From: Zhongshania antarctica | Lineage (GTDB): Bacteria; Pseudomonadota; Gammaproteobacteria; Pseudomonadales; Spongiibacteraceae | DNA length: 64,000 nt | Assembly: GCF_014202945.1 (NCBI RefSeq) | Contig: NZ_JACHHW010000001.1 | Location: forward strand, 248,001-312,000 | Reading direction: 5' to 3' | Shown here: piece by piece, positions 8,473 through 61,279 of the stretch | Position numbering within the stretch: position 1 is the stretch's first letter | Layout: each line of letters opens with the position of its first letter | The notes under the pieces: generated by a model | Databases searched by the model: none | What the model saw: the letters and a program-made list of their open reading frames with translations, nothing else | Told to the model about the DNA's origin: nothing | Translations under genes and position numbers: made by a program

Positions 8473-9666
8473 CTAAACGACGAAGCGCTGTCGATACTCA
8501 GCAAATTGCGCCTTCAAGCCCGCTTCCGTTAAGCCAAACTGCGCTAAGGTATATTCGTGAGCTGGCCGACTGTCACGACGATTGGCTTCCTGGTGCTGCT
8601 CCATCGCCAGCTTCGCCGCTTCGGTAAGTTCCATACCAATAAAATTGTAGACCTTCTGAACCGAGCTCAAGGGGTCTGCAACGGTATCTTTATACCAAAC
8701 ATCCAAGAACGCCTCGGGTTGGCGATCACGGGTTTGCAAGGTATGTAAGGTGCCTCTGGCGTATTTCGCAGCCCACTGTTCCCCCACCACTTTGCCATCA
8801 ACGTTATCACTTCCCAAAACCCACAGGTTGTAATTCATGCTTGCTGCCGAGGGTATAGTCTGCAGTGGGTCGCGATGGGTTTGCACAATTTTGGCGTCAG
8901 GAAACACCTTTAATAAGGTCGCAATGTGGTGGATATGATGAGGGGTTTTTAGCAACCAACACGCCGCCTGTTGGCCGCTGCACTTTTTTTGCCACTGCAA
9001 AAACTGCAACAGCCGCTTTAGGTACTGATAGGCTGGGGTATTGTCATTCTCGTCGTTCCATTTTCCGTAAGTCGGTACATTGCAAAAGGCATCGGGTACC
9101 GTGCTGTAAAAGCTGTGTTCCAATAATAAAATATCTTCATCAGCCGCTATCGGGTCCATGGGGTGAATCGCGGCAATTTCTGGATTTGCCGCCAGCATGG
9201 CCGCCACTTCCGCCTCTGCCGAGCTGATACGCGAGTCTTTAGTTTTAAAATCCCAATCTAATTCGGGCGCTGGATTTCGCACTTCGTACCACAACGGCGC
9301 ATAAAAACGTTTGTCCGCCGCAAGTATGCGGTGGAAAAAGGTTGAACCTGTGCGCTGCAAGCCAATAATCACCACTGGCGCAACAATGTCTTCGTTCAAT
9401 ATTTCCGGGTATTTAGCAATCCAGGCCTCCACACGCAGACGGTTGATGAGAATATTCAAAATCCGCTGATATTGGCCAAAACGACCGCCAGCATTGAGGT
9501 TTGCCTCGTCGTTTAAGGACTTGACCAATACCGCCAATGGCTCGCGAAAAGAGTCATCACCAAAGTCGCTTAGACCAGTGACCTCAGTGGCTTCACGCAA
9601 TAGCGCGGCAACACTCAAATCCACTGCTGGTATTGCCACTGTTGTATTACCTTGCTCTGTACCCAC
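8473..9666 (-). CDS. PAPS-dependent sulfotransferase family protein
   Basis: The 397-residue product has the P-loop-like 5'-phosphosulfate-binding motif GLQRTGST at residues 102-109 and a KIVQTHRDPLQTIPS segment typical of the 3'-phosphate-binding region. Family members transfer sulfate from PAPS to hydroxylated small molecules, lipids or sugars. Translation starts at GTG (9666), preceded by AAGGAG at seven bases. Proximity to sat-cysC offers a local PAPS supply. The acceptor is not predictable. It follows the DUF1214 gene after 33 bases, so the two are probably one operon. Confidence 0.88.
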   Translation of the reverse strand: MGTEQGNTTVAIPAVDLSVAALLREATEVTGLSDFGDDSFREPLAVLVKSLNDEANLNAGGRFGQYQRILNILINRLRVEAWIAKYPEILNEDIVAPVVIIGLQRTGSTFFHRILAADKRFYAPLWYEVRNPAPELDWDFKTKDSRISSAEAEVAAMLAANPEIAAIHPMDPIAADEDILLLEHSFYSTVPDAFCNVPTYGKWNDENDNTPAYQYLKRLLQFLQWQKKCSGQQAACWLLKTPHHIHHIATLLKVFPDAKIVQTHRDPLQTIPSAASMNYNLWVLGSDNVDGKVVGEQWAAKYARGTLHTLQTRDRQPEAFLDVWYKDTVADPLSSVQKVYNFIGMELTEAAKLAMEQHQEANRRDSRPAHEYTLAQFGLTEAGLKAQFAEYRQRFVV

Positions 9667-52206: not shown

Positions 52207-52587
52207 CTACGCAGCATGCCCTCGACGATGCGATGCATGTTTTATGAGACTCTCTGCAGGAATTGAAAAAGTTTCATGTAAGCCTTCTATCATTCTGAGC
52301 GTCAGTGGGCGTTTACGCGCCAAAATTTCATAGACCCGATTTTTGCGACCAATCACTGGGACAAGGTCCTCCACTGTGAGGCCTTGCTGTTCCATACGAA
52401 ATTTAATAGCTTCCACTGGATCAGGAAAATCTATTGGGTAGTGTTCTCGTTCATATGCTTCAACAAGCGTCACAAGAACATCCAGCCGATCACCTTCTGG
52501 GGTGTCCGCTTCCGCCACCATTAACAACTCAATTTCTTTAAGCGTTGCTTGATAGTCTGTCGGGGTTTTAATTGGACGAATTTCCAT
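52207..52587 (-). CDS. higA: HigA-type antitoxin
   Basis: The 126-residue protein has an N-terminal dimer/neutralising region and an XRE-like helix-turn-helix at about 65-110 (FRMEQQGLTVEDLVPVIGRK, RPLTLRMIEGLHETFSIPAE). It follows the toxin gene by eight bases. HigA neutralises HigB and represses the operon. Confidence 0.88.
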   Translation of the reverse strand: MEIRPIKTPTDYQATLKEIELLMVAEADTPEGDRLDVLVTLVEAYEREHYPIDFPDPVEAIKFRMEQQGLTVEDLVPVIGRKNRVYEILARKRPLTLRMIEGLHETFSIPAESLIKHASHRRGHAA

Positions 52588-52595
52588 GGGTCACC

Positions 52596-52898
52596 TCAGA
52601 TTGTCTGTGCATCAATTTCGTCATACTGTTTATGTGTACCAACAAAACGAATGTAAACCACTTTATATGGATAGTTGATCCAAACGACCAGTCGATACTT
52701 GTTGCCGGCAATGTTGAACACAACTCTTCCATCTTTGAGAATACTGGCGCTTGAAAATTTGGCTTTTACCTCATTCGGGGACGACCAATCCGCCTTTAAT
52801 GTCTCTCTATACCAAGCCATTCCGGGCTCGATTGAATCCCCGTAAGCCGGAGAGATCGCCCAAAAGGCCTTCAAAGTTGAGAGAGCAATAATACGCAT
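52596..52898 (-). CDS. higB: HigB-type mRNA interferase toxin
   Basis: A 100-residue RelE-superfamily toxin of the HigB class, with VFNIAGNKYRLVVWINYPYK and VYIRFVGTHKQYDEID as recognisable core segments. It would cleave mRNA on the ribosome when free of antitoxin. The toxin-first order is typical of higBA. Its ATG lies just after a TATATAT element, so the leader must be very short. Confidence 0.9.
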   Translation of the reverse strand: MRIIALSTLKAFWAISPAYGDSIEPGMAWYRETLKADWSSPNEVKAKFSSASILKDGRVVFNIAGNKYRLVVWINYPYKVVYIRFVGTHKQYDEIDAQTI

Positions 52899-52924: not shown

Positions 52925-53165
52925 TCAACGCAATAGACGCTACGCTTGGGCGTGTATATCCGCTAATGTGACTTTATCAACCGTCATCTGGATAAAAAAA
53001 TCGCCTAAAATGAAGACTCAAGGCGTATATCCAAGTTTTGGCCAATATATGTTTCACATGCTTGGCCAGTTTATGGGTGAACCAACAAACTCCACTTGGC
53101 GTAATTAACCAACAACCTAGGCTAAACCTTGACTCCCCACCCCCAGCGCGTATCCTTGGCGCCGA

Positions 53166-53402
53166 TGTTTCAGGTGCTTGCGTCGCATAATGACTGCGCG
53201 CAGCTTAAACGGGAAACAGGTGCGCTGCGCTTAACTATTTACACCAGCAATGCCTGTACTGCCCCCGCAACGGTAAACAGAGAAAACTATTCCGTCAGGC
53301 CACCTAGGTGCTGACAGCCACTGCGTAAACCGTGGGAAGGCGAATAGTCACTGCGTGAGTTTTATCACGCACTCTGTGAGTCCGGAGACCGGCCCGAAAC
53401 CA
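53166..53402 (+). ncRNA. Adenosylcobalamin riboswitch
   Basis: Conserved parts appear in the right order: TTTCAGGTGC at the 5' stem, AAACGGGAAACAGGTGCG, CTGCCCCCGCAACGGTAA, GCCACTGCG, GTGGGAAGGCGAATAG, and the B12 box as GAGTCCGGAGACCGGCC. This is a full class-I type cobalamin aptamer. It is followed by about 150 bases to the CobN-like gene, with the hairpin described next. Cobalamin should reduce expression of the downstream genes. Confidence 0.93.
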
Positions 53403-53516
53403 AAGAATAGAACGTGGCGGGGTGTCACACCAGATTCGCTTTTTGGCGCATAGCCATAGCTAAAACCATAGTCTGCCACGCCCCCAGCCCGCGTTTTATT
53501 CCCACCTTGTTCAATA

Positions 53517-53544
53517 GCCGTATGCGGGCGAGCTACGGCGGGGA
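53517..53544 (+). promoter_or_regulatory. Hairpin abutting the cobN-like ribosome site
   Basis: GCCGTA (53517-53522) pairs with TACGGC (53534-53539), directly before GGGGA (53540-53544), the ribosome site of the ATG at 53551. It is a candidate expression platform for translational control by the riboswitch. Confidence 0.5.
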
Positions 53545-53550
53545 AATGCT

Positions 53551-56500
53551 ATGTCTGGCCGTATTCAAAATCTAGTCCGAAATCTATTTGCCTTACTACT
53601 GCTGCTTAACGCCGCCAGTGCTATGGCGATGAATATTACCGCGATTGTTTCAGACCGCTCGGCACCTACCCTAATAGCGGGCGCTCACCAGCTGTTAGAA
53701 CAACGCCAAGATTTAACAATTCAAATTCGCACCGTGCAGCAAATAAGCAAGCTAAGCGACGAGGAGCTACAGGCTCTTATCAGCCACAGCGACCGGCTTT
53801 TATTAGTGGCGATATTTGGCGAAGACGTGCCGCGTTTATTGGCCATGAATTACCCCACCCAGCAGCTGCGCACGGTATTGCACAGCGACCGCGCCCTAAT
53901 GCGCCTGCAACGGGATCGTCACGGTGAGATATTTAGTCAGGGCTTGCCAGAGGATATTCTCGGTGACAAAGCCGGTGTGCAAACCGCAGTCGCTCTAACT
54001 GAAAGCCAAAAGCAAGCGCCCCGCTACGCCGACTGGTTGCAAGCCCGCGCCTATTGGCTAAACCGCTCGGTGAACAATGCCGCCAGCCTCTTGCAAATGC
54101 TGGCCAACAGCAGCGCAGCATACCCCCGCCTAGAAGAAGTTGCGCCCCTGCGTTTTGCCCTGCACCACGGCGATGACGCCGACTGGCTCAGTGCCGCCGA
54201 GTTAAATGCCCAGCTCAAGCCCGCACAGCGCACCGTGTGGATTATCGACCACGACACCGCCGACTTAAGCGGCGACTGGGCCTTGCACCAGCAGCTTTGC
54301 GCAGCGCAAACATGGCAGTGTGTTTCGGTGTTGGCGGCTTGGGGCCAGCCCAGTGTCGCGGCGTTAGAAACCATTCAAACTGCCATGCGTGGCCCGCTTA
54401 AAAATAGCCCTGCGGCTATTATTGCCCTGCAAGATTTTGTGATTGGCGGCGGCGAGGGTCGCGAAGCGGTAACGGCGATTTTAGAAGAACTCAAGTTGCC
54501 AATCTTAAAAGGCATTCGCATCAGCGAGTGGTCTAGCGCCCAGTGGCAGCTCTCTGCCGAGGGTATTCCCCGCGACTCAGTACACTACCGCGTGGCCATG
54601 CCCGAGCTGCAAGGCGTGTCGCAACCCCAAGTGTTAGCGCTAGCCGCCACCGCTAAAATCGACCCGCGCACCGGCGCCAGTGTATACCGCAGCAAACCCC
54701 TTGCCGATGAAATCCAGCGCCAAACACGGCGGCTAGCCCGCTGGCTAAGCCTGCAAGAAAAACCCAATACCGACAAACGCGTCGCCGTGGTGTATTACAA
54801 CCACCCACCGGGCCGTCACAATATTGGCGCCGACAATTTAAACGTGCCAGAGAGCCTGCTCGAAATACTCCGCGCCCTGCGCGCCGCTGGCTATCACACT
54901 GGCGAGCTGCCCGCCGATGCCGACGCGCTACTCGACGTACTCCAAGCCAAAGGCGTGAATTTACCAGAAGACGCCGCAGCGCTAGAAGCCATGGCTGGGC
55001 AAATTAATTCCGTCTCCAGCCACGCCTACCAGCAGTGGTTTAACACCCTGCCCCCAGCAGTACGCGCAGAAATGGTCAACGGCCCACTCGGCGAATTACA
55101 GCAAAGTTTACAGACCCAATTGGCCGCACTGGCCGAACTCAGTTCGGTTACCGAGCGCCAAGATCAGTTAGCGCTAATTCGCGCCCGCATGGAAAACACC
55201 CTCACAGATTTACACCACGCCTTAGATGGCGTGCGCCACACCGGCCGCAGCCGCGCCTTAAATTTACTCGCCCAACTGGGCGACGAATACCAGAATTTAT
55301 TAGCACAGGCGGCCAGCGGCCAAAGCCTAAATTGGCAAGCCAACCAAGAACTCAACCGCGCCTTAATCGACATGGGGATTGAAGGTATTCGCGGCTGGGG
55401 TAAAGCACCCGGCAAGGTGATGGTGTGGGACAACAAGGTGCTCATTCCCGGTGTGCAATTCGGCAATGTTTTTCTTGGCCCCCAGCCACCGCGGGGCTGG
55501 GAGTTAAACGAAGAACTGCTGCACGCCAATATGTCCTTCCCGCCGCCCCACCAATATTTGGCTTTTTACCATTATTTGCAGGACGTGTTTAAAGCCGACG
55601 CCCTTGTTCACATTGGTCGCCACTCTACCTATGAATTTTTGCCCAAGCGCAGCGTGGGACTTTCTGCCAGTGACTACCCCAGTATTGCGGCGGGAGATTT
55701 ACCGGGCATTTACCCCTATATTGTCGATGGCGTTGGCGAGGGCATTCAGGCCAAGCGCCGGGGCTTAGCGGTCATGGTCGATCACCTCACGCCACCACTT
55801 GCCGCCACCGAGCTATACGACAAGCTGCTCGAACTGCGGCAATTAATTGAAAGCGCCGAAGCCGCCAGCGACGGTAGTACCAAAGCCCGCGCCATAGAAA
55901 CCCTGCGCCGCAAAGTAGATGAGTTTAATTTACGTGACGAACTTATTGCCAGTATGGACGAAGAACTGCAAGTGCGCGGCGTTGGCTTTGATGAGATTGA
56001 CGACGATTTCTTACTCCACGAAATTGGTCACTACCTCACCAAGCTCCAAGAGCAATTTATGCCCTTGGGCCTGCATGTGTTTGGCCGCGACTGGCAGCCC
56101 AAGGCCATCGACACCATGCTCAATTCCATGCTGCAGGGCGAAGCCGCCGACAGCAGCAAGCGCAGCGACTGGCTGAGTAAACTCAGCGCCTCACCCGCCG
56201 CTGAAATGCGCGCCCTGCTCAACGGCCTTAACGGCCAGTTTGTGGCGCCCGGCAAAGGCAATGATCCCATTCGCACCCCCGAGGCCCTGCCCACCGGCCG
56301 CAATTTTTATGCGCTGGACGGCAGCCTCTTACCCACCCGCGTTGGGGTTGAGGTAGGCACGGCACTGGCCGCCAAAGTACTGGCTGGCGAGTCTGGCGTC
56401 GCCTTTGCCAATACCGATATTGCGAATAATAAGCAGGGCATTATTTTATGGGCCTCCGACGCCGTGCGCGACGAGGGCGCGATGATTGCCTTTGGCATGA

Positions 56501-57966
56501 AGCTGCTCGGCGTGCGGCCCATTTGGAATAGTCGCGGCATCATTAAAGGACTAGAGCGCCTGCCCCTTGGCCCCGAACAGCCCCGCCGTTTCGATGTGGT
56601 CTTTACCACCTCGGGCTTATTCCGCGATCTCTACGGACAGCATTTATTGCTGCTCGACAAAGCAGGATTACTCGCACTGGATGCCAGCAGCGACTTAATT
56701 CGTCGCGACTATCCTGCGCTGAGTTTGGCCCTGCAAGCAGCGCTGGCGCCCTTAGACGAAGCCCAAGAGGGCGGCAGCGAACCGCTAGACAAAAACCAAG
56801 TTGCCAATAACTGGGTGAACGAGGCGCGGGAATTACTCGCCGCCAGCCCCGCAATCTCGGCCGCCGACCTTGGCCGCCAAGCCAGTGTCCGAGTATTTGG
56901 TATTGCGCCAGGTGCCTACGGCGCAGGGGTTAACCGCATGGTTGAACGCAGCGGCTCGTGGCAGGACCGCAGCGAATTGGCCGAGGTCTTTGTTAAACGC
57001 ATGGGCCACGCCTACGGAGTGGGTTTACAGGGCGAGTCTGCGCAAACCCTGTTCCGTCGCCAGCTCACGGGGGTGTCACAAACCTATCTGGGCCGCGCCA
57101 GCCATCTTTACGGTTTAATCGACAATAACGACGCCTTCGACTACCTCGGCGGTTTTAATTTGGCGGTGGAAACCGTGAGCGGCAAAGTACCGGCCAGCGC
57201 GGTAATCAATCACGCCGACAACCGCAATTTGCACATCGACACCCTGCCCGAAGCATTACTGTCGGAATTGCGTGGCCGCTTCTTTAATCCCCAGTGGATT
57301 AAGCCCCTCATGGCCGAAGGCTACTCCGGCGCCCGCACCATGGGCAGCGAATTTATTGAATACCTCTGGGGCTGGCAGGTGACTAGCCCCGACATTATCA
57401 ATGACCGCGTGTGGGAAGAAGTGAAAGCCATTTATGTGGACGACGCCATGCGGCTCGGGCTGGCGGAATTTTTGGCCCAAGACAATAACCGCTATGTGCA
57501 AACCAATATTTTGGCGGTAATGCTGGTCGCCATCGACAAAGGTTTTTGGCAAGCCGACGCCGCCACAGTCAAGCAATTGGCCGAGCAATTTAGCGACAAT
57601 ATTATTGATCACGGCAACCCCGGCAGTGGCCACACCCACGCCAACCACCCCATGTACGCACTGGTAAAACAAAAGCTCAGCCCAGAGCGCGCCAAGGAGC
57701 TTGAAGCGGTACTGGCCAAGAGCCGAATGACACCGGAAGCACCAAGCACTAACTCGCCCAGCCATATTCAGGAAGTACAGCTAGACGCGAATACTACTGC
57801 GCAAATTAGCCAGCCGGCGACCGCGTCTAAGCAGGAATCAGCAGCGGCGTCAGCTGAACAACAATCACCAACCAGCGCCATCAGCCCCTACCTGCCATGG
57901 CTATTCGCAGCGGGAATATTATTGCTTCTCAGCGGCCTGTGGCGCGGCCGTCAGCCTAAATTCTAA
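53551..57966 (+). CDS. CobN-like metal chelatase, exported and membrane-anchored
   Basis: The 1471-residue protein is a CobN/ChlH-class large subunit. It differs from cytoplasmic CobN by a signal peptide (residues 1-27, ending ASAMA) and a C-terminal membrane segment (about 1447-1466) after a Q/A/S-rich linker, which predict a periplasmic enzyme held in the inner membrane. The signature around residues 687-695 reads HIGRHSTYE, where cobaltochelatase CobN usually has HLGKHGTLE; the following GDLPGIYPYIVDGVGEG is conserved. CobN inserts cobalt into hydrogenobyrinate diamide with CobST, but no cobS or cobT is here. A riboswitch ahead and an ExbB-like plus DUF2149 pair behind point to corrinoid or cobalt handling in the envelope. 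HmuS-like chelatases are the nearest analogue I know. Confidence 0.85.
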   Translation: MSGRIQNLVRNLFALLLLLNAASAMAMNITAIVSDRSAPTLIAGAHQLLEQRQDLTIQIRTVQQISKLSDEELQALISHSDRLLLVAIFGEDVPRLLAMNYPTQQLRTVLHSDRALMRLQRDRHGEIFSQGLPEDILGDKAGVQTAVALTESQKQAPRYADWLQARAYWLNRSVNNAASLLQMLANSSAAYPRLEEVAPLRFALHHGDDADWLSAAELNAQLKPAQRTVWIIDHDTADLSGDWALHQQLCAAQTWQCVSVLAAWGQPSVAALETIQTAMRGPLKNSPAAIIALQDFVIGGGEGREAVTAILEELKLPILKGIRISEWSSAQWQLSAEGIPRDSVHYRVAMPELQGVSQPQVLALAATAKIDPRTGASVYRSKPLADEIQRQTRRLARWLSLQEKPNTDKRVAVVYYNHPPGRHNIGADNLNVPESLLEILRALRAAGYHTGELPADADALLDVLQAKGVNLPEDAAALEAMAGQINSVSSHAYQQWFNTLPPAVRAEMVNGPLGELQQSLQTQLAALAELSSVTERQDQLALIRARMENTLTDLHHALDGVRHTGRSRALNLLAQLGDEYQNLLAQAASGQSLNWQANQELNRALIDMGIEGIRGWGKAPGKVMVWDNKVLIPGVQFGNVFLGPQPPRGWELNEELLHANMSFPPPHQYLAFYHYLQDVFKADALVHIGRHSTYEFLPKRSVGLSASDYPSIAAGDLPGIYPYIVDGVGEGIQAKRRGLAVMVDHLTPPLAATELYDKLLELRQLIESAEAASDGSTKARAIETLRRKVDEFNLRDELIASMDEELQVRGVGFDEIDDDFLLHEIGHYLTKLQEQFMPLGLHVFGRDWQPKAIDTMLNSMLQGEAADSSKRSDWLSKLSASPAAEMRALLNGLNGQFVAPGKGNDPIRTPEALPTGRNFYALDGSLLPTRVGVEVGTALAAKVLAGESGVAFANTDIANNKQGIILWASDAVRDEGAMIAFGMKLLGVRPIWNSRGIIKGLERLPLGPEQPRRFDVVFTTSGLFRDLYGQHLLLLDKAGLLALDASSDLIRRDYPALSLALQAALAPLDEAQEGGSEPLDKNQVANNWVNEARELLAASPAISAADLGRQASVRVFGIAPGAYGAGVNRMVERSGSWQDRSELAEVFVKRMGHAYGVGLQGESAQTLFRRQLTGVSQTYLGRASHLYGLIDNNDAFDYLGGFNLAVETVSGKVPASAVINHADNRNLHIDTLPEALLSELRGRFFNPQWIKPLMAEGYSGARTMGSEFIEYLWGWQVTSPDIINDRVWEEVKAIYVDDAMRLGLAEFLAQDNNRYVQTNILAVMLVAIDKGFWQADAATVKQLAEQFSDNIIDHGNPGSGHTHANHPMYALVKQKLSPERAKELEAVLAKSRMTPEAPSTNSPSHIQEVQLDANTTAQISQPATASKQESAAASAEQQSPTSAISPYLPWLFAAGILLLLSGLWRGRQPKF

Positions 57967-57978
57967 ATGGAGTTCACT

Positions 57979-58437
57979 ATGGTTTCCGGATTATCTCAAG
58001 GGCTTATGCATCAGATCACCTCGCTGCTACTGGAGCCGGTGATTTGGGCATTATTATTTTTTGTCGCGTTGGCGATTTACGAAGCGGGCATTTGCATCGG
58101 CGAGCGCTGCGGCGGCATTCGCAAACTCCGCGACGCTGGCAACCGCGACGCGCTGGTACTCGCGGGTAAACGCCGTATTGAGCGCGCCGACTTTATTACC
58201 CGCCTCGCGCCGATGCTGGGTTTGATGGGCACCTTAATACCTCTCGGCCCAGGCCTAGCGGCGCTTGGCGAAGGTCAGTTGCGCATTCTCACCACTGCCA
58301 TGACCGTGGCCTTCGACACCACGGTGATTGGCCTACTGGCTGGCATGATCGGCTTTGTCCTCGCCCGTCTGCGCCGCCGCTGGTACGACCAAGCCCTGCA
58401 CCAGCTTGCCGCCTTGGGAACTACGCAACATGGATAA
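57979..58437 (+). CDS. MotA/TolQ/ExbB-family proton-channel protein
   Basis: The 152-residue protein has three membrane segments (about 16-37, 76-98 and 107-130) with the ExbB/TolQ core FITRLAPMLGLMGTLIPLGPGL and the later TTAMTVAFDTTVIGLLAG. Such proteins use the proton gradient to drive a partner. The ATG at 57979 has GGAG six bases ahead and is preferred to the one at 57967. It begins 13 bases after the CobN-like gene and overlaps the DUF2149 gene by eight bases. Confidence 0.9.
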   Translation: MVSGLSQGLMHQITSLLLEPVIWALLFFVALAIYEAGICIGERCGGIRKLRDAGNRDALVLAGKRRIERADFITRLAPMLGLMGTLIPLGPGLAALGEGQLRILTTAMTVAFDTTVIGLLAGMIGFVLARLRRRWYDQALHQLAALGTTQHG

Positions 58438-58738
58438 GTGGCGCGACAGCGAATTTCTCGACAATAACGACGACCCCCTTGGCCCGATGGCGAATTTGGT
58501 CGATATTATTTTAGTGTTTGCCTGCGGGCTTATCGCAGCGCTGGTTTCAATGAGTCCTGACCTGCAACAGCATTTTAAGACTGAGCCCCAGAAACAGGAT
58601 ATTTCACTAGGCAAAGAACTGCCGAGCGTGCCAACAACAGTTCAGCAACAAATTCAAAATGGAGACGGCTACGAGGCGCTGGGGCAGGTCTACCGCGACC
58701 CTAAGACAGGGAAATTGATTTTGATTGGTGGCAGTTAA
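58430..58738 (+). CDS. DUF2149 protein, ExbD-like partner
   Basis: A 102-residue protein with a short cytoplasmic N-terminus containing LDNNDDPLGPMANLVDIILV, a single membrane segment (about 22-40) and a small extracytoplasmic domain ending YRDPKTGKLILIGG. This matches DUF2149. The topology equals that of ExbD/TolR/MotB, and the aspartate in the membrane entry (LVDIILVF) could be the proton carrier. It overlaps the ExbB-like gene, and the pair probably form one channel. Confidence 0.85.
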   Translation: MDKWRDSEFLDNNDDPLGPMANLVDIILVFACGLIAALVSMSPDLQQHFKTEPQKQDISLGKELPSVPTTVQQQIQNGDGYEALGQVYRDPKTGKLILIGGS

Positions 58739-58774: not shown

Positions 58775-61279
58775 TTAATAGTCAAAGATATGCTCCAGCT
58801 CAATTTGCTGCTCGCTTGCCTTGCTGGCAAGCGCTTCAAGAAAGCGTGTTAAATCTGCGACGCCAACTAGTACAAAAATCCGCTCACGCTCATCATCAGA
58901 CACCAATACTGACCTGAATAACTCACGACCCGCTAGGCCCGACACATCGGCACCCGCCAAGCCGAGCAGTGACACTACAATTTGGTGGTTGCCAGAAATA
59001 TCACTGATCGCCCACTCATCGCTAGCAAAGCGTGGCATTGTTTTGGTGAAGTCGCCCCGGCGGGGAACAGACATTAAAAAGTCGTCGCCTCCCCCGGCAA
59101 GCATCTCGACGCCATCAGGTTCTTTTGGCAATCGAATGCTATTGCTGATGACACGTTGAGCCGTAAGGTAAATCCGTTTATCCGTTTCGCCATAAGTGGA
59201 TTGGGCGGCGTATTTAATGGCCTTGGCGTACAATGATTTCAAGCCAAACTCAGCACTGAAGAATAACTTGCGCTCCCATTTACGCAGAGGATGATCGCCC
59301 CACAAACTGGTTTCCGCCCAGAGCCGATCCCGCCAGCCTGCAAAATCAAACTCATACCACGGCTCGTCATAAATAAGTTCACTGTATGCGCGGTGGGCCT
59401 GTTGGATAAGCTTATCTTCCTCGGTGTCTTCACCACTCGCGGTCCAGCGGGTGAAGCGGCCGATGCTGCCCTCATATGCGCCCTTGGCTAAATATTCTAA
59501 TGTCGTGCTAATACCAATAACCCGCAACATGGTGCGGTATTCCGTATTCGCTGGGTAACTCTGCCGACTAATGGCAATGGCCCTATCGTAAAGCACCCAA
59601 TATTCCTCAATGCTTTCGTAAAAGGGGAAATTGCTAGGGTCGCGGCCCTGCGCTAAATAGTCGGCATATTCTTTGGGCTGGAATACTAAATACCATTCAG
59701 GGATCGTCAGAAAAGTTTGTTCTTCGCTGCGATAGTAATTACCTAGATCTGTTTTGCTTTGCGCCAGTAAATCCCGATTTTTAGGATAGTATTTTACCCA
59801 AAGTAAATTCACAAAGCGGTTGTTTGGATCGAGCCGACGCTTGAGTGCAAAATAGTCTGTCGCCTTGGGGTAGGCCGCCAGAAATTGTTCCGGACTAGCC
59901 TGCAGCTGATACGGCAAATAATAGGCGCCGCCCAGACTAATGGCAGCGTCGATCATCTCGCTGCTCCACACGCTCACCGCTTTCTTTGCGGCGGCGTCAG
60001 TGCCTTGGCGGTAGTACACAACAAACGCAAAAACCTCGGTTTTAGCCCAGTTGAGTATGGTATTGGGATCAGCCTTGGCGTGCCGAACGCTGACGTTGAT
60101 AATATTGGCTTTATTGCGCTGGAAGATATCCCGCATCTGCACGTGAAATTCATCAAAGCGCTCTACCGGTACAAAATATTCACGCAGGCCATAGCTGTAT
60201 TCCGAACGATCTTTTGGCTCCAATTCAGCGACGTCGTAACTGGCCTCGTAATTTCGCCACTCAACCCGCTCCGGGTAATACCAAACCGGGTCAATGATGT
60301 GTTCGCGCGTCCATTTTCCAAAGTTGGAGCTAGCAACAAACTCCGCCGTTTTAACCTGCCAGTAGTAGTCTTTATCTTCGGGGATTAATCGCTCGGCAAC
60401 CGTTGGCGATTTATCGGTCGCAAGCCAGCTCACGTCGCGCAGACGATTGTAGTGCGGAGGGTAAATGTCGGCGTTGTGAAAAACCACATCGCTGTTGTCG
60501 CGCACATTATCACGAAAGTGTTGGGCATAGTCTTCAGTAGCCATTACTCGCACGCGGCGCTCTACAGCAATATTGTCTTCGAGCTGCAGGGTCGCCTCGA
60601 CAATTACGCCTAAACCACCGTAACCGCCAATGGCGCCGTAGAAAATATCCGCATTGGTATTCGGCGAAGCGTCTACTACGCTGCCGTCGGCGAGCAGTAA
60701 TTTTAATCTCAACACGGAGCCAACCAGGGGGCCCTCACCAATATAACGGCCGTGAACATTGACACTCAAAGAGCCGCCCACAGTGAAATTGGCGTAGGTT
60801 TGCATGATTTTAATGGCTAAATTATGCGGATCAATCGCGGCCTGCAGATCCCGCCAGCGAATACCCGGCTGAACAGTAACTGTTTTAGCTGCGGTGTCAA
60901 TATTCAGCACCTTATTAAAGCTGCGCATATCCAGGTGAAGACTGTCTGGATAAGCGGTCTGACCGCCTTGGCTAAAGCGACCACCACCAATGGAAACACG
61001 GCCCGATGTTGACGCCAGCACGGCCTGCACATCCGCAATTGACTCGGGGCGAAGCACCTGCCCTACCCGCACTGCATTTAATTTACCAACGTTATTAACG
61101 GTCAGCGGCAATACCGGCGGCACAAAACTGTCGTCGCCACTGCGTAATACCGTCACCGCAGTGCTTACGGCCAAAACGACTATTAACAGGATAAGAATAC
61201 TTGCCAGAACACGGAATACCCGCCAAAGTAATTGTGCTGGATTGACGCGATTGAACCGGGATCCTTTTAGCTTATACAA
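58775..61279 (-). CDS. FAD-binding oxidoreductase (PCMH/aldonolactone oxidase-like), membrane-anchored
   Basis: The 834-residue protein has an N-terminal membrane segment (about 24-46), then a PCMH-type FAD domain with VSIGGGRFSQGGQTAYP and VQPGIRWRDLQAAIDPHNLA, and GGSLSVNVHGRYIGEGPLVG as the flavin-contact stretch. An aldonolactone-oxidase-like region follows, with ALKRRLDPNNRFVNLLW closing it at about residue 490. Some 340 further residues have no family I recognise. Substrate unknown. It is convergent with the DUF2149 gene and divergent from the methyltransferase. Confidence 0.82.
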   Translation of the reverse strand: MYKLKGSRFNRVNPAQLLWRVFRVLASILILLIVVLAVSTAVTVLRSGDDSFVPPVLPLTVNNVGKLNAVRVGQVLRPESIADVQAVLASTSGRVSIGGGRFSQGGQTAYPDSLHLDMRSFNKVLNIDTAAKTVTVQPGIRWRDLQAAIDPHNLAIKIMQTYANFTVGGSLSVNVHGRYIGEGPLVGSVLRLKLLLADGSVVDASPNTNADIFYGAIGGYGGLGVIVEATLQLEDNIAVERRVRVMATEDYAQHFRDNVRDNSDVVFHNADIYPPHYNRLRDVSWLATDKSPTVAERLIPEDKDYYWQVKTAEFVASSNFGKWTREHIIDPVWYYPERVEWRNYEASYDVAELEPKDRSEYSYGLREYFVPVERFDEFHVQMRDIFQRNKANIINVSVRHAKADPNTILNWAKTEVFAFVVYYRQGTDAAAKKAVSVWSSEMIDAAISLGGAYYLPYQLQASPEQFLAAYPKATDYFALKRRLDPNNRFVNLLWVKYYPKNRDLLAQSKTDLGNYYRSEEQTFLTIPEWYLVFQPKEYADYLAQGRDPSNFPFYESIEEYWVLYDRAIAISRQSYPANTEYRTMLRVIGISTTLEYLAKGAYEGSIGRFTRWTASGEDTEEDKLIQQAHRAYSELIYDEPWYEFDFAGWRDRLWAETSLWGDHPLRKWERKLFFSAEFGLKSLYAKAIKYAAQSTYGETDKRIYLTAQRVISNSIRLPKEPDGVEMLAGGGDDFLMSVPRRGDFTKTMPRFASDEWAISDISGNHQIVVSLLGLAGADVSGLAGRELFRSVLVSDDERERIFVLVGVADLTRFLEALASKASEQQIELEHIFDY

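Follow-up and report, generated by a model that had tools for sequence, protein, structure and literature searches.

A stretch of 64,000 nucleotides (nt) from Zhongshania antarctica (contig NZ_JACHHW010000001.1, positions 248,001 to 312,000; hereafter called the window) contains, on its forward strand, a cobalamin riboswitch followed by genes for a CobN-family protein, an ExbB/TolQ-like protein and a DUF2149 protein. The riboswitch aptamer (window positions 53155..53411) matches the Rfam model RF00174 over its full span with 85.1 bits, compared to a gathering score of 31.5; no other Rfam match in the window reaches its gathering score. The CobN-like protein (53551..57966) has a length of 1471 residues (PF02514, E 4e-251). 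It is followed by the ExbB/TolQ-like protein (57967..58437; 156 residues; PF01618 with 35.7 bits at a cut-off of 22.9, E 8e-9) and the DUF2149 protein (58430..58738; 102 residues; PF09919 with 45.6 bits, E 9e-12), which has one transmembrane helix with Asp25 at its start. The cobN stop codon immediately abuts the exbB start and the DUF2149 gene overlaps the end of exbB by 8 nt, with the ATG at 58430 being a more likely DUF2149 start than the mechanical TTG at 58355. A sequence-only reading of the window had described a complete cobalamin riboswitch and a 1471-residue CobN-like protein, tightly followed by ExbB and DUF2149. This description was confirmed, except that the riboswitch match starts at 53155 and not at 53166; the junctions are a 0-nt gap and the 8-nt overlap. 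Since the arrangement CobN-ExbB-DUF2149 is seen again in most of 80 named loci of other genomes, it is not due to chance, and the operon is confirmed as real.

These loci stem from a scan of GTDB genomes, which yielded 292 relatives, mostly from Gammaproteobacteria and additionally from Campylobacterota, Nitrospirota, Nitrospinota and Myxococcota. From these, the 80 best were retained as named loci. They comprise the closest relatives and are no random draw from the 292; the closest of all comes from a Zhongshania metagenome-assembled genome (MAG) at 96% identity. Proteins were compared in an alignment of 133 rows in all, 90 of which are of the type found in the window (window type) and 30 canonical CobN, defined by a score of >1200 bits with a complete match. 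Gene contents were examined in 155 genomes of the order to which Z. antarctica belongs (order genomes), and 49 hosts of named loci were searched for B12 genes. PF02514 matches occur in 56 of the 155 order genomes, 31 of which have canonical CobN and 12 the window type (order carriers).

Rfam riboswitch matches precede the operon in all 12 order carriers. Among the named loci, a cobalamin riboswitch was found upstream in 74 of 80 by either a core pattern (riboswitch core with at most two mismatches, upstream and on the same strand) or Rfam, in agreement with the B12 regulation proposed by the sequence-only reading. The core pattern was positive in 69 of the 80 loci, in 58 of them within 700 nt and in 11 farther away. 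L115, the 70th locus, has an Rfam match of 57.8 bits, and Rfam further adds L090 (weak, 33.4 bits) as well as L102, L108 and L123, where other B12 genes are situated between riboswitch and operon. In four divergent loci (L109, L114, L121, and L137) the upstream core is below the Rfam gathering score, so that their assignment rests on the core pattern. No upstream Rfam match was present in the remaining sequence of L091, L104, L111, L112, L116, and L117, whose reading frames start 0.6 to 1.8 kilobases (kb) away from the edge of the contig; in L112 and L117 a riboswitch lies downstream. In L060 and L061 there is another riboswitch core near position 9279; it lies on the strand opposite to the operon, points away from it and faces an open reading frame (ORF) of 736 residues.

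The N-terminus of the CobN-like protein (MSGRIQNLVRNLFALLLLLNAASAMA) has, judged by eye from the sequence, the features of a Sec signal that ends with AMA; residues 1-26 (53551..53628), with AMA preceding the cut, are likely to constitute the signal peptide. The C-terminus comprises a hydrophobic segment (about residues 1447-1464, 57889..57942; mean hydrophobicity 1.91 over 17 residues), which is predicted to be a transmembrane anchor, and then the basic sequence RGRQPKF. The combination of a Sec-like N-terminus with a C-terminal hydrophobic helix and subsequent basic residues implies that the bulk of the protein should be periplasmic. A loose test for N-terminal hydrophobicity was passed by all 90 window-type rows, yet also by 16 of the 30 canonical CobN rows, and was dropped as signal peptide evidence due to this lack of selectivity. 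A stricter signal pattern was found in 83 of 90 window-type rows and in none of the 30 canonical ones; it misses the window protein, in which a hydrophobic stretch of 8 residues is ended by an Asn. The C-terminal transmembrane helix is present in 88 of 90 window-type rows and again in none of the 30 canonical CobN rows. The exported topology assigned by the sequence-only reading is thus supported across homologues, for which signal-peptide prediction did not fail in the way that this reading had named as a counterindication, and it is very likely that the protein is exported and B12-regulated, with B12 predicted to act as repressor.

No PF02514 protein besides the CobN-like one was found in the genome of Z. 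antarctica. The CobN-like protein scores far below the NCBIfam CobN/BchH equivalog cut-offs in all nine models matched (522.9 vs. 822 for TIGR02257 and 640.5 vs. 1619 for NF004645, for instance). By sequence, its best solved relative is HmuS (9d26, 359.8 bits), with CobN next (358.1 bits); the kinship with HmuS suggested by the sequence-only reading is thus supported, as a distant one. A structure model of residues 281-1378 (predicted local distance difference test, pLDDT, 77) also matches HmuS 9d26 best, then CobN and ChlH (7c6o, ChlH chains), meaning that the fold does not separate these types. In a tree of 54 rows the window type is monophyletic with a support of 100, separate from canonical CobN as well as from the HmuS-like rows. 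A branch with a support of 86 (short search) divides canonical CobN from the window type, the HmuS-like rows and the remaining DUF2149-linked types.

His691 (codon 55621..55623) is a His in every row of the 133-row alignment and corresponds to HmuS His538 in the motif HFG(T/A)HG; the residue following it is Ser in 90/90 window-type rows and Gly in all 43 other rows. Besides His691, the residues Lys735-Arg-Arg, Arg1025-Asp1026, and Asp1194 are invariant in the 90 window-type rows, a degree of conservation that fits an active enzyme. In HmuS, His538 and His1209 hold a cation between them (PMC12583661). Further heme ligands of HmuS, Met79 and His254, are situated between its head and neck, outside the range of the phmmer alignment with the window protein. 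The second axial ligand, His1209 of the motif LSLDHxxEFMGG, falls into the column of Asp1194 (codon 57130..57132), which holds Asp in 90/90 window-type rows and in 29 of 30 canonical CobN rows and His in the HmuS-like rows L051, L052, and L054. As the other DUF2149-linked rows L055, L057, L138, and L140 also have Asp in this column, the residue separates heme-type from other rows and is no proof of a corrin substrate. ChlH was excluded from this argument, its register differing by one residue between MAFFT and phmmer. A Met-rich domain IV insertion, described for each of 680 aligned HmuS sequences (PMC12583661), is absent from the window protein, in which residues 789-873 (85 residues with 4 Met) correspond to HmuS 638-922 (about 285 residues). 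Orthology with HmuS was rejected based on the missing insertion, the missing His1209 equivalent, the operon content and the tree. In addition, two cysteines in the N-terminal part, C250 and C257, each occur in 83 of 90 window-type rows; they might form a periplasmic disulfide or a ligand pair.

ExbB was detected downstream of CobN in 81 of 90 window-type rows at distances of -168 to +125 nt, whereas in the HmuS-like rows L051, L052, and L054 it is located at +613 to +631 with a further gene in between. The transmembrane threonines T89 and T119 of ExbB are kept in 89 and 88 of 90 aligned rows, respectively, and Asp25 of DUF2149 in 96 of 97, the remaining row having Glu. Transmembrane threonines in ExbB together with a transmembrane Asp in DUF2149 represent the pattern expected of a stator. 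Homology of DUF2149 to ExbD could not be established: hhalign yielded a probability of 2.7 (p 0.017) over 18 columns and aligned the transmembrane Asp, and a low-confidence DUF2149 model (pLDDT 67) gave no structural match with E <=0.001 and no ExbD among the 25 matches listed. The C-terminal transmembrane helix of CobN and a downstream DUF2149 gene are both present in 88 of 90 rows and both absent in the other two, L050 and L139. These two are also without a downstream ExbB, and a TonB receptor gene is kept in both operons. Joint loss of anchor and motor with retention of the TonB receptor links the motor to the anchor of CobN and not to the receptor, and ExbB-DUF2149 is probably physically coupled to this anchor.

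To assess whether the hosts synthesize the corrin ring, CbiC/CobH was used as marker. CbiC is present in 31/31 order genomes with canonical CobN compared to 3/12 with the window type, and in 3 of the 49 hosts of named loci; CobM/CbiF exceeded its cut-off in the same three CbiC-positive hosts only, with weaker matches to the methylase family in 48/49. The absence of cobS and cobT noted in the sequence-only reading could be extended for CobT, as PF06213 gave no match in 12/12 order carriers including the genome of Z. antarctica; CobS, ChlI and ChlD were not searched. Likewise, the tracking of de novo synthesis with cytoplasmic CobST that this reading had named as a counterindication was not seen (CbiC 3/12 and 3/49, CobT 0/12). 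CbiA/CobB was present in 41 of the 49 hosts, 32 of them over the curated cut-off. Among CbiC-negative order genomes, CbiA/CobB was found in 7/9 carriers vs. 7/107 others (Fisher p 2e-6, kinship ignored), presence being called by E-value, with some matches below cut-off. Three of the seven CbiA-positive non-carriers (G020, G043, and G080) carry another DUF2149-linked CobN type. CobQ exceeded its cut-off in 9/9 CbiC-negative carriers vs. 33/107 others (kinship ignored), and among genomes positive for CobQ and negative for CbiC, CbiA was present in 7/9 carriers vs. 7/33 others (p 0.003, kinship ignored). For comparison, published frequencies of cbiA/cobB are 2.6% among predicted non-producers and 46% among precursor salvagers (PMC6461909). 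It is therefore quite likely that the main role of the clade is salvage rather than synthesis.

At least one of twelve B12 genes is situated within about 9.5 kb of the operon in 35 of 89 loci examined; neighbours were named by their best BLAST hit, and the label BtuB may include other TonB-dependent receptors. In L050 the order is riboswitch-btuB-cobN-btuF-btuC-btuD-cbiA (names read from ORFs), and L139 from a Marinobacter plasmid comprises riboswitch-TonB receptor-cobalamin-binding protein-permease-ATPase-cbiA-cobN-cobO-cobQ-bluB (PLSDB annotation). Seven Colwellia-type loci show cbiA-cobN-exbB-DUF2149-cobO, and L123 from Nitrospina btuF-btuD-btuC-cobQ-btuB-cobN-exbB-DUF2149-cbiA-cobO-cobS-bluB. 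The BLAST label 'CobD?' was not counted, as it denoted a doubtful ORF in L049 and an ATP-binding cassette (ABC) ATPase in L050.

The genome of Z. antarctica contains four cobalamin riboswitch matches. Apart from the one in the window, riboswitch 1 precedes cbiA, cbiD and then (ORFs as read) the rest of a corrin-ring operon including CbiC, next to which a CbiX-like gene, below the NCBIfam cut-offs, lies on the other strand. Riboswitch 3 is followed by a btuB-like ORF (as read) and then cobO, btuF-like, btuC-like and btuD-like genes, bluB, and cobQ, with the three btu-like transporter genes scoring below their cut-offs. The organism thus appears to make B12 itself with cobalt inserted early, a route for which, given this early-insertion set (CbiD, CbiX-like), the exported protein should be dispensable. 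Riboswitch 2 (L038 14809-17277, C3) precedes a TonB-dependent receptor of 697 residues, which is not a clear BtuB (33 bits to TIGR01779); similar receptors follow the operon in the Oleispira loci L070, L074, and L098.

Several known systems resemble the operon in parts. Like the window protein as predicted here, HmuS of the Bacteroidota system with HmuT, HmuU and HmuV is an exported class-I chelatase with membrane anchors, and the iron-responsive hmu operon contains ExbB-like and DUF2149 genes (PMC10434189). In contrast to the riboswitch-controlled operon of the window, which consists of three genes with none between CobN and ExbB, the hmu operon is under iron control and in its complete form includes HmuY and HmuT. 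Hmu-like operons with a cobalamin riboswitch were reported for Bacteroides, together with a suggested role in cobalamin metabolism (PMC10100974). These operons of B. fragilis share the cobalamin riboswitch with the window. They and BtuS, a third CobN type according to Rodionov 2003 as cited in PMC6460266, were compared by description only; the phenotypes given for BtuS1 and BtuS2 concern heme iron (PMC6460266). Canonical CobN, which acts with CobST and ATP (PMC10206600), belongs to the same domain family and has the same Asp at the position of residue 1194, yet it tracks the ring pathway (31/31) and has no C-terminal anchor (0/30), and the window type differs in both respects.

The cluster on plasmid pSZ77 of Trichlorobacter lovleyi comprises a TonB receptor, ExbB, DUF2149, and CobN under cobalamin riboswitches, as do window-type loci. 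Two tandem riboswitches (107 and 66 bits; L138 6915-7381) precede TonB receptor-DUF2162-ExbB-DUF2149-CobN, and a third one (105 bits) precedes a cobalt energy-coupling factor (ECF) transporter. Unlike the window type, the pSZ77 CobN lies outside the window clade, has a gene for a DUF2162 permease ('predicted transporter') and adjoins cobalt-transport and ring-synthesis genes. It represents a second, separate B12-controlled exported CobN lineage. A CobNST role of this protein was already doubted by the authors of its description, who left CobN beside transport genes unexplained (PMC3403914). In Pseudomonas aeruginosa, PA1922-PA1925 combine TonB receptor, CobN-like, ExbB/D-like and DUF2149 genes (PMC9431628) and were tentatively linked to raised cellular cobalt (PMC4542158). 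These genes are Zur-regulated, unlike those of the window, and the likeness is by their published description. A cluster on the Runella plasmid pRUNSL01 (L140 3107-11141) holds a TonB receptor, a NicO-like membrane protein (below the Pfam cut-off), ExbB, DUF2149, and CobN among hyp hydrogenase-maturation genes and has no Rfam match, which suggests a nickel version of the module. We infer that these other modules serve metal release with a metal permease, while the permease partner of the B12 clade is BtuFCD where the operon has one; pSZ77 shows that a B12 riboswitch can precede the metal-permease kind of module too. For Chlorobaculum tepidum, insertion of cobalt into externally acquired cobalamin was speculated upon, as cited second-hand (PMC8620254). 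No earlier description of the window clade, its spread, its CbiA link or the joint loss of anchor and motor was met in a partial, open-access literature search.

All these observations are best explained, with a probability of about 0.48, by a periplasmic, inner-membrane-anchored and motor-coupled class-I chelatase with a CobN-type pocket that serves the salvage of external corrinoids. An outer-membrane BtuB-like receptor would deliver the corrinoid to the periplasm, where it would be bound by the CobN-like protein. ExbB-DUF2149, joined via the C-terminal anchor, would provide mechanical work from ion flow and thereby take the place that CobST with ATP has in the cytoplasmic enzyme. Incoming corrins that hold no metal or the wrong one, for example hydrogenobyrinic acid, might then receive a metal or have it exchanged, after which BtuFCD, CbiA, CobO, and CobQ could complete the cofactor. 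In the late-insertion pathway CbiA and CobN act right after the product of CobH. This order of steps, the retention of the catalytic residues and the fact that cobalt removal would be useless to most carriers favor metallation or metal exchange in imported corrins as the reaction, for which substrate and direction can be proposed tentatively. The most specific form of this scheme, in which the AAA+ motor CobST, powered by ATP, is replaced by an ion-driven ExbB-DUF2149 stator for periplasmic cobalt insertion into captured metal-free or wrongly metallated corrins, appears unlikely. If it were true, bacteria that do not synthesize the corrin ring could salvage corrins at the stage of hydrogenobyrinic acid, a form of B12 cross-feeding not met in the partial literature search.

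Several points speak against this salvage chelatase. CbiA is a cytoplasmic enzyme, and as the CobN-like protein is placed in the periplasm, the two cannot perform simple consecutive steps in one compartment; moreover, 8 of the 49 hosts are without CbiA. A natural source of metal-free corrins for these bacteria was not found in a literature search at listing level. L050 and L139 keep the CobN-like protein without the motor, which is thus not strictly needed there, and since the tree shows them as sisters, their shared loss of anchor and motor counts as a single event. The grouping with the other exported types has a support of 86. Three order carriers including the window's organism have the ring pathway, and a supply of cobalt would make sense there. 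Finally, the pSZ77 cluster is also under cobalamin riboswitches, so that a riboswitch alone cannot tell corrinoid salvage from cobalt supply; this lowered our estimate for the salvage chelatase slightly and raised that for cobalt release slightly.

A role without any metal chemistry ranks close behind metallation or exchange. The CobN-like protein could be a hand-over factor that catches corrinoids leaving BtuB and passes them on to BtuF, with the motor opening and closing the protein. Operons containing btuB and btuFCD, the persistence of the protein without a motor in L050 and L139, and a distant similarity of the HmuS head and neck domains to periplasmic binding proteins (PMC12583661) are in line with this possibility. 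It is rendered doubtful by the invariance of the catalytic-cavity residues in 90 rows, which exceeds what binding alone should need. Many B12 users also import cobalamin by BtuBFCD alone. Alternatively, the motor might be unrelated to the CobN-like protein and merely an extra energiser of TonB and BtuB, given that HmuU and HmuV have been read as ExbB and ExbD for outer-membrane import (PMC10100974) and that a BtuB-like gene is nearby in some loci. Against this improbable explanation, L050 and L139 retain the TonB receptor gene and have lost the CobN anchor, ExbB, and DUF2149, the Trichlorobacter cluster holds ExbB-ExbD-TonB in addition to ExbB-DUF2149, and DUF2149 is located at most 2 kb from a CobN-family match in 20 of 22 DUF2149-positive order genomes. 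The genome of Z. antarctica furthermore offers seven separate ExbD-family matches.

The sequence-only reading had favored a counterpart of HmuS that works on corrinoids, for example by removing or exchanging cobalt or by releasing bound B12. The CobN-type Asp in place of the HmuS-type His agrees with action on corrinoids by such a counterpart, while cobalt removal turned out weak, since most carriers searched are without the corrin-ring pathway and the extra gene of HmuS-like operons is missing; the interpretation is hence partly supported. An HmuS-like dechelatase that strips cobalt from corrinoids or iron from heme as metal supply would be suggested by HmuS 9d26 being the closest solved structure in sequence and fold, by relatives of other types in heme, zinc, nickel, and cobalt contexts, and by the pSZ77 cluster of a B12 maker, in which a DUF2162 permease gene is likewise under cobalamin riboswitches. 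Nevertheless, in the 46 of 49 hosts without CbiC released cobalt would not feed corrin synthesis, and destroying B12 under B12 shortage makes little sense. Corrins, besides, hold cobalt very tightly. Where HmuS has its second heme-coordinating His, 90/90 window-type rows have Asp, the gene that separates CobN from ExbB in the three HmuS-like rows is missing at the short distances given above, and a btuS1 btuS2 double mutant of B. fragilis still released protoporphyrin from heme (PMC6460266). Cobalt release thus fits most carriers poorly and is on the whole unlikely, although cobalt supply is conceivable in Z. antarctica itself, given its ring pathway. For a cobaltochelatase of de novo B12 synthesis, one could point to the membership in the CobN family, the riboswitch and the three order carriers that have the ring pathway and no canonical CobN. 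This role is, however, highly improbable and was rejected for the clade based on the distribution of CbiC (3/12 and 3/49 vs. 31/31 for canonical CobN), CobM, and CobT (0/12). The protein is apparently exported, and the genome of Z. antarctica has an early-insertion set with CbiD and the CbiX-like gene, the latter below the NCBIfam cut-offs. The poor fit to a de novo cobalt insertase stated by the sequence-only reading is accordingly borne out by the absence of CobT and of corrin-ring synthesis in most carriers.

If the salvage chelatase is real, many apparent B12 auxotrophs with a stray cobN would carry a dedicated, B12-regulated periplasmic machine for corrinoid salvage, and cobN would be a misleading marker for B12 synthesis. 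The genotype of CbiA plus exported CobN without ring synthesis predicts that incomplete corrins circulate as nutrients. Whether a stator of the ExbB type is able to power a tetrapyrrole chelatase could also be examined with this system. The answer would matter for HmuU and HmuV of the heme system, which lack an explanation, and for the similarly built zinc, nickel, and cobalt clusters.

Next to the operon, immediately 5' of the riboswitch, the reverse strand of the window carries a gene for a HigB-like toxin (PF09907, E 2e-31) within 52207-52898. In the same interval and on the same strand, it is followed by a gene for a partner of 126 residues without Pfam match, possibly its antitoxin. Directly 3' of the operon, a convergent gene on the reverse strand (58775-61279) encodes a protein of 834 residues with the flavin adenine dinucleotide (FAD)-binding domain PF01565. 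Among the relatives, the CobN-like reading frame is split in L069 and L090 (Methylophaga muralis and an Arenicellaceae MAG), due to either assembly error or decay.

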